Of a stretch of 64,000 nt of DNA, positions 57,901 through 60,481 are shown piece after piece. The notes under the pieces are model-generated. The model did not search any database. It had not been told where the DNA came from and saw only the letters and a list, made by a program, of their open reading frames with translations. Numbering within the stretch: position 1 is the stretch's first letter; every line of letters starts with the position of its first letter. Source of the stretch: Antedon mediterranea (lineage: Eukaryota > Echinodermata > Crinoidea > Comatulida > Antedonidae); the NCBI RefSeq assembly GCF_964355755.1, contig NC_092671.1, positions 38,519,304 through 38,583,303 of the forward strand, in the 5' to 3' direction. Both the position numbers and the translations under genes were made by a program.

Positions 57901-60481
57901 TAATACACGCAACCTTGTTCAAGATATCCACCAATTATAGTATTCAATCCAATTAGTAATTTGTCAACTTTCTTTGACAATCGAAAATGAACCAAAGAAA
58001 CTTTTTGAGGAAGTACAGCTAGCTATTGAACAAGGGGTGTTTATTTATTATTAATTATTATGAATTAATTTATATTATTATAATAGAAAGAAATTATTGA
58101 AAGAAAGAAAATAAATGTTTACGTTGAACTTGATTTATAAGTTAACTTTCTTTTTATTAACAGCATTCGGCGGTGATAGTTCAAAAGTTACCATATTTGG
58201 TGAAAGTGCTGGTGCAGCCAGCGTGCATCTCCACTTGCTATCGCCACTCAGCCGCAACCTATTTTCACAAGGCATAATGCAAGTATGTGTCTGTTTCATA
58301 ATGTCACGTGTCTCTTGAAACGTATGACATGGATAATGTCAATGAACTAAATCAATGTATTCTTTTGTTTAGTAAAATGTAAATATGAAAACCTAAGTAC
58401 ACTTAATTTTAAACATCCCAGCCTGAAAACTATAATCAGCTTTGTATGCTCTCGTATACTCTTATTCGAAGTTGGCTCAATATATTCCAAACAAAATCTT
58501 TGTGTTTTTTTCTTCGTCATCCTAACTGTTTGTTGTAAGTTTAATATTTTGCCAAAATAAAAGAAAGAACTAACAAAGCGTTAAAGTATTGGTTTTCTTT
58601 ATCAGAGTGGGTCTGGACTCTGTGGATGGGCAGTTGAACTGGACACTGAGAAAGCAATCGAAGATGCAATGAGTGTTGGCCGCAACTTAAATTGTTCATA
58701 TCAATCTTCAAAAGAATTGCTAACCTGTCTACGAACTAAGACAACTGCTGAGTTATTAGAAGTCCAAAGACAGGTAGAGTGACTTAACTTAGAAAGTATT
58801 CAAACTTCAATTGAAATGAAAGTTTTCAGACAACTAAAGGGTCTTTCACACCTGTTCCGACACGGTTCCGGTCCGGCGCCGGCAAATCAAATCGTTTTCA
58901 CGACGCTCTATAATCGATATACGCGTAGCCGCGCGGAAAAACGAAACATTGACGTTTGATTCGCCGGACCAGAACTGTGCCGCAACAAGTGTGAAAGACC
59001 AGTTAGAAGTGCAACTTTAATGATATTCTTATTCATATTTGATTATTATTCTGTTACGTTATCAAGAAAAAATAATACGGTAATAATAATGCAACGTTGA
59101 TCCGCAGATCATTACTCAAGCCATAAACGTCATTCCTTTCGTACCAATCGTCGATGGCGACTTCCTCACAGACAAACCCGCAACACTTGTCGAACATGGT
59201 AACTTTAAATCAGCAAACATTTTGATTGGTAACAACAAAGATGAAGGTACACTGTGGGCAATGCGAGCATACCCGTTATACGTACCACTACCTGAAGCAC
59301 CAGAAATGTTGCTACCAGAATTTCAAGAAGTCTTTCCTGAGTATGTGTACTGGTATAAAGACCCACATACCACTGACGCAATTGAGCAACAGTACTTAGA
59401 CTGGACTAAAGTGGATGACGCATCTGCTGATCACTTCCAGTCATTTGTTGAGATGACAACCGATCAGACGTTTGCCTGTCCTGCTAGTGATGTCGCAAGA
59501 GCGCATGTCTTGAAAGGAGACAATGTTTATCGATATGAAATGACTCATGTACCTTCTAAATCTGTGTATACCCTGAGTAGAAGACTAGGTCCCAAATGGT
59601 TGGGTGCGACACACGGGGAGGATTTGCAATACATGTTTGGATGGGGTTTTAATGACGCATTTAAATCCCGATATGGAAACATACAGAACGACGAAGAAAA
59701 GACAATGTCGGTTCAATTTATGAAGTATTGGGCAAACTTTGCAAATTATGGGTAAATATATACATTTTAACAATTATTTTATATCCATTTCTCAAAGGAC
59801 GGTATAAGAAGAGCAATAATCTCAATATCACAATTTAATCAAATGTTTTTAAAAATGCGTAAAAATACCGTTGGATATGAAATGCACATTTCAACTTGTA
59901 TCAAGTTCCAAGTGTTAACATACTATTTCTTTTTCAGCGATCCAAATGGAGTTTCAAATTTAACATCAACGTATCCTAGTTGGCCAAAGTTTACCGTCCC
60001 AGAATTAGAATACAAAGAACTTTCAATAGAAATGGAAAATGGGCGGGCTCTTCGAGCAGACGGTTGCAGCTTTTGGAGAAACTATGTACCAAGATTGTCT
60101 GCTTTTACAGGTATGATGGCCGTAAATCACTTAATTTCATTCATCTAAATGATAGATGAAACCAAGCCAGGACGGTTAAAGCACTTTGTTTGGTCCTAAC
60201 ATTGATCAAGGTCTTCTCTCGTCCAGTGCCCACCTTCTTAAGAGGAAAACCATGGGTCAATACGTCTGAGGCAGATACTAGATAACAATCCACATATATT
60301 TCACTGTTTTGTATTATAGCATCATCAATTTGATTTTTAAAAATTGTTTTTTTAAGGTAAATTGTCTGACTTAGAAAAAGATTGGCGGAACAGTTACTAT
60401 TCCTGGAAGTATGACGACATGCCTGAATGGACAACAAACTTTAATGATTACAAAAACCAGAATGAATGTACTAAACCATGA
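54952..60481 (+). CDS. secreted type-B carboxylesterase / cholinesterase-like protein with T-peptide-like tail (8 exons)
   Basis: Exons 54952-55308, 56846-57005, 57206-57286, 58164-58282, 58606-58773, 59108-59751, 59938-60110 and 60357-60481 join in frame to 1827 nt (608 residues). A signal peptide ([18 protein letters not shown]) starts it. The alpha/beta-hydrolase marks are [22 protein letters not shown], the oxyanion loop [17 protein letters not shown] with nucleophile Ser214, NNKDEG with Glu341, and THGEDL with His464, so the triad is complete. Cysteine pairs match the cholinesterases (NLNC...TCLR; Cys419 with the GCSFW cysteine). The first disulfide loop is short and reads QSNPN where acetylcholinesterase has the choline-binding WNPN. 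Exon 8 encodes a tail with Trp577, Trp584, Trp592, FNDY and Cys605 four residues from the end, like the cholinesterase T peptide. AATAAA lies 104 bp past the stop. Substrate unknown; classical acetylcholinesterase activity is unlikely. Confidence 0.95.
55645..55697 (+). mobile_element. family A MITE fragment in esterase intron 1
   Basis: TAAGTTCTGTCTACATATC, AAACTTTATGTGACATGATGA, then only ATCACTACCTTATTT. An internal deletion has removed most of the core. Confidence 0.65.
56066..56133 (+). mobile_element. family A MITE, right half
   Basis: ATATCACTACCATATTTGGAC to GATAGTGTAGACAGAGCT-TA. It directly follows the SINE-like tail ATTGGCGATTTTTCGCTG at 56029. Confidence 0.75.
56481..56635 (-). 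mobile_element. family A MITE, left end eroded
   Basis: AAACTATCGAATTAGTTTGAC replaces the normal left terminus. Two AAATATGGTA units. Right end GATAGTGTCGGCATAGCT-TTA. It lies 210 bp before esterase exon 2. Confidence 0.8.
57393..57457. repeat. CT-dinucleotide microsatellite
   Basis: About 30 CT repeats, with one CCCC interruption near 57447, in esterase intron 3. Confidence 0.98.
57471..57900 (-). pseudogene. non-LTR retrotransposon reverse-transcriptase fragment
   Basis: The minus strand reads [17 protein letters not shown], then [20 protein letters not shown], then [14 protein letters not shown]. This is the region after the catalytic domain in many LINE ORF2 proteins. It is broken at both ends and antisense to the esterase in intron 3, next to the CT repeat. 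Confidence 0.8.
58848..59001. mobile_element. 154 bp GC-rich hairpin MITE in esterase intron 5
   Basis: GGGTCTTTCACACCTGTTCC and GGTCCGGC on the left mirror GCCGGACCAGAACTG and CAAGTGTGAAAGACC on the right. The centre has CpG-rich words such as ACGCGTAGCCGCGCGG. Its base composition stands out against the AT-rich intron. Confidence 0.85.
60357..60481 (+). other. exon 8: tryptophan amphiphilic tetramerization-like tail
   Basis: This last exon encodes only the tail after the catalytic domain, as the T exon does in vertebrate acetylcholinesterase. Trp residues are at 577, 584 and 592 (spacing 7 and 8; 7 and 7 in the vertebrate peptide). WTTNFNDY parallels WKNQFNDY, the cysteine lies 13 residues after the third Trp in both, and three residues follow it. 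In vertebrates this helix assembles tetramers around ColQ or PRiMA proline-rich segments. Assembly here is inferred. Confidence 0.8.

Follow-up and report, generated by a model that had tools for sequence, protein, structure and literature searches.

The analyzed stretch of DNA, hereafter referred to as the window, comprises 64,000 nucleotides and harbors an esterase gene of eight exons on the plus strand between positions 54952 and 60481, which we designate the focal gene (Table 1). All seven introns are bounded by GT..AG and the exons join in frame, which gives a predicted product of 608 amino acids followed by a stop codon. A spliced alignment that scores splice sites recovered the same eight exons, the query being the focal protein itself. 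The COesterase profile (PF00135) matches residues 22–556 of the product with 493.5 bits. Besides the polyadenylation signal candidate listed in Table 1, further AATAAA motifs are located downstream of the stop codon at 60631 and 60737. An antisense open frame over exon 8 (60141–60440) was considered as a gene and set aside. Read-through at the donor of exon 7 (60111–60150) would yield a short alternative end of 12 residues followed by a stop, which would lack the tail encoded by exon 8; read-through forms exist for AChE, and the possible end of the focal protein would be comparable to these. Inspection by eye of positions 52000–62000 moreover revealed a recurrent sequence of the type CTACACTATCAAACTTTATGTGACA with inverted ends, both in introns and between genes (e.g., 53160–53330, 56480–56640, 60760–60880, and 61830–61990), which resembles a family of short mobile elements with inverted repeats.

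Table 1. Exons of the focal gene and neighboring features, given as positions in the window.
Feature	Position	Strand	Content	Basis
Exon 1	54952..55308	+	signal-peptide-like start (by eye only); first Cys loop C90-C106 without the Trp84 segment	gene model and alignment
Exon 2	56846..57005	+	oxyanion-hole region HGGAY	gene model and alignment
Exon 3	57206..57286	+		gene model
Exon 4	58164..58282	+	nucleophile elbow GESAG (catalytic Ser)	gene model and alignment
Exon 5	58606..58773	+	disulfide loop C269-C280	gene model and alignment
Exon 6	59108..59751	+	catalytic Glu (NKDEG) and His (GATHGE)	gene model and alignment
Exon 7	59938..60110	+	end of the catalytic domain with C553; stops after codon base 1 (phase 1)	gene model
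Exon 8	60357..60481	+	40-residue T-peptide-like tail (W577, W584, W592, FNDY, C605) and stop	
AATAAA	60585..60590	+	possible polyadenylation signal, 104 bases past the stop codon	
Next tandem paralogue	61335..64000	+	extends beyond the window; own T-like last exon just outside (L016:1289-1402)	

For the comparison of the active sites, we adopted the residue numbering of the AChE chain 6euc, which we take to be from Torpedo and for which a check string matched all 28 positions; the residue counts given in the following rest on one alignment. The focal protein carries the catalytic triad Ser200, Glu327, and His440 as well as all six cysteines of the three disulfides at the Torpedo positions. The preliminary description of this locus had assigned the tail to an enzyme without the choline-binding tryptophan, and this is borne out by the alignments: The segment around Trp84 is absent from the first Cys loop. 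Furthermore, Tyr121, Phe330, and Tyr334 are replaced by Ile, Leu, and Arg, respectively, and Trp233 is kept. At 14 positions that we take to be the aromatic lining of the gorge, the focal protein retains only five aromatic residues and, hence, no cholinesterase-like gorge; the corresponding numbers are 11 in the three classical cholinesterases of this genome, eight in BChE, three and four in two bacterial carboxylesterases, and three in Ces2e. The number of these positions agrees with PMC3045457, according to which fourteen aromatics line the gorge and eight of them are kept in vertebrate BChE. By the features tested, the predicted enzyme is not a cholinesterase, and the focal protein is probably a secreted carboxylesterase.

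The tail was then said to be encoded by exon 8 alone and to contain Trp577, Trp584, Trp592, the motif FNDY, and Cys605 followed by three residues; the gene model reproduces these positions exactly, and the distance of 13 residues between the third tryptophan and the cysteine equals that in the vertebrate T peptide, as had been noted. Three tryptophans and a cysteine near the C terminus, as expected of a T peptide, are hence present, and the spacing of the tryptophans is seven and eight residues instead of strictly seven. The underlying one-residue insertion between the second and third tryptophan is real, but it cannot be regarded as a peculiarity of the focal gene, since it is common to all three classical tails of this genome, whose spacing is likewise eight, and to 11 of the 12 non-classical tails introduced below.

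The AChE_tetra profile (PF08674) assigned 20.9 bits (E 3e-4) to the focal tail alone, which is under the curated cut-off of 25, and 19.2 bits (E 0.5) to the focal exon in a six-frame search of the genome. In a sequence search against the PDB, the best match of the tail was 1vzj (E 0.017), a 40-residue acetylcholinesterase chain that is presumably the T peptide, and the best match of the whole protein was the cholinesterase 4tpk, presumably human BChE, with an alignment that extends into the tail. An HMM built from six classical tails gave the focal tail 19.5 bits, a score that was reached by none of 2000 shuffles, by one of 2000 shuffles in which Trp and Cys were fixed, and by none of 5000 random Trp-heptad amphipathic helices, the best of which scored 19.3. 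When the HMM was restricted to three vertebrate tails, the focal tail obtained 12.4 bits: This beats all 2000 shuffles of itself but is lower than the 99th percentile (16.9) of the random helices. Across the non-classical tails, 11 of 12 beat all 2000 of their own shuffles with the six-tail HMM, the tail of gene 38.580 (genes are named by their position in Mb) being reached by two; with the vertebrate-only HMM, 224 of 2000 shuffles attain the score of the 38.580 tail and 78 of 2000 that of the 38.589 tail, so that neither tail can be told apart from its own shuffles. A profile–profile comparison with hhalign of 11 of the 12 non-classical tails with the six classical tails finally resulted in a probability of 96% and an E of 4.3e-9. 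The concern that random amphipathic helices might resemble T peptides as closely as the tail does is therefore dispelled narrowly by the six-tail HMM, which includes the classical tails of this genome, and clearly by the profile–profile comparison, but it persists for the vertebrate tails alone. The single focal tail is suggestive only; the homology is settled because the family of 11 tails matches the classical tails in hhalign. Based on this match and on the shared intron phase described below, the focal tail is a divergent T-peptide homologue encoded by its own last exon, in line with the preliminary description.

The searched genome comprises 354 Mb on 18 contigs. PF08674 yielded 13 matches in it: Three are over the cut-off, all of them on contig C5, and ten are weaker, three of which are last exons of non-classical T-tailed esterases, the focal exon included. 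Seven of the 13 matches, with 17.5–19.5 bits, lie outside the 15 T-tailed genes that we identified in total. PF00135 gave at least 111 exon matches (84 of 131 candidates scored), and spliced models of the paralogues were derived under the guidance of the focal protein; very short exons in the models of 7.114, 7.128, 38.589, 36.375, 36.367, and 8.53 are doubtful. Three classical cholinesterases with T tails are encoded on C5 at 4.067, 8.53, and 15.45 Mb. In addition, 12 non-classical esterase genes with a T-like tail are distributed over two contigs: six on C2, which are the focal gene, its two tandem neighbors, a pair at 7.1 Mb, and a single gene at 35.56 Mb, and six on C1, which form a tandem cluster near 36.37 Mb. 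A whole-genome search with the focal tail retrieved 12 places, exactly these 12 last exons and nothing else, and a search with a C1 tail retrieved these 12 as well, two of them with E values as high as 0.5 and 7, together with two classical C5 exons (E 0.03 and 2.5) and no other place. Trp84 is lacking in all 12 non-classical models, among which the row of 36.367 says little as its loop is cut short, and four to seven of the 14 gorge aromatics are kept. The catalytic Ser and His are present in 12 of 12, the Glu in 11 of 12, with Asp in its place in 38.580. The preliminary description had missed that the focal gene is one of 12 and that the uncoupling of the tail from choline binding characterizes an entire esterase clade.

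The exon structure of these genes bears on the history of the tail. In all 15 T-tailed genes (12 non-classical and three classical), the last intron is in phase 1 and the preceding intron in phase 2. The phase-2 intron is older because it also occurs in two genes without a T tail, at 22.47 Mb on C9 and at 6.42 Mb on C5; what marks the T exon is the phase-1 intron in front of it. In vertebrates, the T exon is likewise preceded by a phase-1 intron. A common origin of the classical and non-classical tails is deduced from the shared exon position and phase in conjunction with the profile match, not from the tree. Ten further esterase paralogues at 35.77–35.83 Mb on C2 have no recognizable T tail in their models. 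In six of these models, a phase-1 intron still precedes the last exon, which is devoid of Trp in five cases and is not distinguished from its own shuffles in any of the six. We read this as a loss of the T tail in the C2 paralogues, which implies that the tail can be lost.

Phylogenetic trees were calculated for the catalytic domain without tails, with the three classical genes of this genome and three PDB chains as the classical set; two gene fragments (35.784 and 35.793 on C2) were left out of the alignment and the trees, and a second tree leaves out the long-branched C5 6.42 and the partial C5 8.25. The classical cholinesterases constitute one clade (support 100/99) and the 22 non-classical genes, 12 T-tailed and ten tail-less, another (97/97; 96/97 in the second tree). 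Within the latter, the 12 T-tailed genes form one clade with moderate support (79/54), which becomes 87/88 without two long-branched rows. A putative sister relation of the non-classical clade to the cholinesterases obtains 71/94 with C5 6.42 inside and 51/28 without it. The cholinesterase tree of PMC3045457 covers invertebrate deuterostomes.

On these grounds, we consider it reasonably probable that the focal gene encodes a secreted, probably active non-cholinesterase serine carboxylesterase whose last exon codes for a T peptide (WAT helix) that was inherited and has diverged; from this, we infer assembly through the tail. The 12 genes most likely encode esterases that are not cholinesterases and that have retained the assembly tail by inheritance; the tail itself is genuine and conserved throughout the family, and assembly is plausible. 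By analogy to AChE and BChE, the tails of several subunits would probably bundle, four of them around one polyproline II peptide, and in the simplest reading this partner peptide would thread the bundled tails. The cysteine near the C terminus would link the chains by disulfides, as it does in AChE and BChE, the tail would set the oligomer state and location, and the substrate would be some ester other than acetylcholine. For the working of the assembly module, which the proposed mechanism reuses, we refer to PMC5943944.

Several observations speak against an assembly that is canonical in every respect. The third tryptophan is displaced by the extra residue, and a proline is found two residues before this tryptophan in eight of the 12 non-classical tails. 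A single-sequence AlphaFold2 model of the tail, of low confidence with a mean pLDDT of 65.5, contains helices at 4–19 and 23–37 with a break at 20–22, and the hydrophobic moments of the two helices are unexceptional, being reached by 15% and 42% of shuffles. Since the classical C5 tails also carry the extra residue, this residue alone cannot forbid assembly, provided that the classical tails assemble. A gene for a proline-rich anchor, as envisaged in the preliminary description, did not emerge convincingly from the genome: A search with PRIMA1 returned four matches, none of which is over the cut-off (best E 0.02, with two internal stops), and a pattern for the PRAD core returned six matches compared to four for the reversed control, none of them convincing. 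The frames with this pattern contain runs of proline; a single Cys precedes the core in some of them and a Cys pair in none. The lack of a partner match in this genome does not imply that the partner is absent. According to PMC8518539, polyproline peptides from many proteins can organize BChE tetramers, and a dedicated anchor gene is consequently not required.

Some of these observations would fit a tail that forms homo-oligomers or disulfide-linked dimers without a proline-rich partner, that is, a T-peptide descendant now working alone. The missing PRIMA1 match over the cut-off agrees with this explanation, and the proline and the extra residue before the third tryptophan in many tails would, together with the broken predicted helix, suit a changed bundle. 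The pattern of conservation is informative in this respect: Columns W9, Y13, W16, W24, F28, and C37 are invariant in all 11 aligned tails, which represent three tandem groups and one lone gene, and the tail of 36.385 on C1, omitted from the alignment because its exon spans a locus border, agrees with these tails at the three Trp, the Tyr, the Phe, and the Cys. The invariant cysteine near the end is compatible with a partner-free tail, whereas the invariance of the three tryptophans and the phenylalanine, while many residues between them vary, is not what such a tail would lead one to expect. In vertebrate T peptides, these four residues form the lining of the polyproline groove. We regard a tail working alone as a rather unlikely alternative to assembly around a partner peptide.

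A second alternative is that the tail is a functionless relic from a cholinesterase-like ancestor. The ten C2 genes at 35.77–35.83 Mb without a T tail, six of them with a phase-1 last exon, are in accordance with such a relic, and so is the focal trio, in which divergence from both neighbors is greater in the tail than in the catalytic part: Compared with 38.580 and 38.589, pN is 0.40 and 0.35 for the tail and 0.30 and 0.29 for the catalytic part. By contrast, the C1 tails are under purifying selection that is stronger than that on their catalytic parts: dN/dS in this cluster amounts to 0.00–0.33 for the tail and 0.23–0.41 for the catalytic part, with the tail being lower in 15 of 15 pairs, which are non-independent and include two with saturated dS in the tail. 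Given this selection and the fact that none of the 11 aligned tails departs from the three Trp, Tyr, Phe, and Cys, a relic seems improbable to us.

We deem it very improbable that the enzyme has remained a cholinesterase in which a residue other than Trp84 holds the choline: The best whole-protein matches in the PDB are cholinesterases and the triad as well as Trp233 are kept, but the loop lacks the Trp84 segment, other residues stand in the places of Tyr121, Phe330, and Tyr334, and five of 14 gorge aromatics are close to the three to four of the bacterial carboxylesterases and Ces2e rather than to the 11 of the classical genes. Finally, the idea that an amphipathic end rich in Trp resembles the T peptide by chance, which would be compatible with a score below the Pfam cut-off and with random Trp-heptad helices being separated narrowly by the six-tail profile and not at all by the vertebrate-only profile, can be rejected with near certainty on account of an exon position and intron phase as in the classical genes of this genome, the shuffle scores, the hhalign E of 4e-9, and the 12 paralogues.

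Compared with the T peptide or WAT helix of vertebrate AChE and BChE (PF08674, 1vzj), the focal tail is alike in its approximately 40 residues, its own last exon after a phase-1 intron, the three tryptophans, an FNDY like that of BChE, and the cysteine 13 residues after the third tryptophan. It differs in scoring below the Pfam cut-off, in the extra residue between the second and third tryptophan, and in being attached to an enzyme without Trp84; the proline before the third tryptophan in eight of the 12 non-classical tails is a further deviation. With the classical cholinesterases of the genome, the focal gene shares the COesterase domain, the phases of the last two introns, and a T tail with the extra residue, whereas it lacks both the EMWNP loop and the 11 of 14 gorge aromatics of these C5 genes. 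The latter, moreover, have a single exon for the bulk of the catalytic domain, with two introns in two of the three models as opposed to seven in the focal gene. Tail-less carboxylesterases, namely Ces2e (9g73) and the gene at 22.47 Mb on C9, have the same fold and triad and no choline-binding tryptophan, but no T tail; in the C9 gene, a KDEL retention-like signal takes its place at the C terminus. The neuroligin-like and dead cholinesterase-like proteins at 8.25 and 6.42 Mb on C5 also have the same fold and no Trp84, but their catalytic serine is replaced by glycine, whereas the focal gene keeps the triad.

To our knowledge, the T peptide is usually treated as a mark of AChE and BChE. A clade that lacks the choline-binding loop, which it either lost or never had, but possesses the tail separates assembly from acetylcholine hydrolysis. 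The natural variants, in which a residue is added, a proline is present, or the tail is lost, furthermore constitute material on which the requirements of proline-rich peptide binding can be tested. Among the matches listed from the open-licence literature, titles and abstract openings gave no account of T-tailed esterases without Trp84. We tentatively suggest, as a possibility that we would not yet call likely, that the T-peptide module is not a cholinesterase trait but a more ancient feature of a broader set of esterases. In this reading, the secreted non-cholinesterase family of 12 genes would have retained the module, and its products and the three classical T-type cholinesterases may use proline-rich anchors in common or even join in mixed tetramers.

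Some further observations were made in the course of the genome searches. An open frame at C1:21614529 contains PPPPPLFPPPRPPNLGPPPP (PPPPPLFPPP), which we take to be close to the core of the proline-rich attachment domain of ColQ, with no Cys pair before it; the frame could belong to an intracellular proline-rich protein. The carboxylesterase with the C-terminal KDEL at 22.473–22.479 Mb on C9 groups with Ces2e (92/86; 99/97 in the second tree) and is probably the ER-lumenal carboxylesterase of this animal. In the esterase-like gene at 6.418–6.422 Mb on C5, the catalytic Ser is replaced by Gly (GSGAGAE), the His is aligned to Asn, and the branch is very long, which makes a dead protein of the cholinesterase fold probable. 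The model of gene 36.367 (36.363–36.368 Mb on C1) is without the stretch that holds the end of the first Cys loop: Exons 1 and 2 are joined in one open frame, the intervening stretch is missing, and the loop is thereby shortened, so that the gene may be a damaged copy or reflect an assembly fault. At 35.765–35.829 Mb on C2, a tandem array comprises ten near-complete esterase genes and two gene fragments. The copies 35.780, 35.789, and 35.799 of this array, which are approximately 10 kb apart, are almost identical, which points to a very recent duplication.
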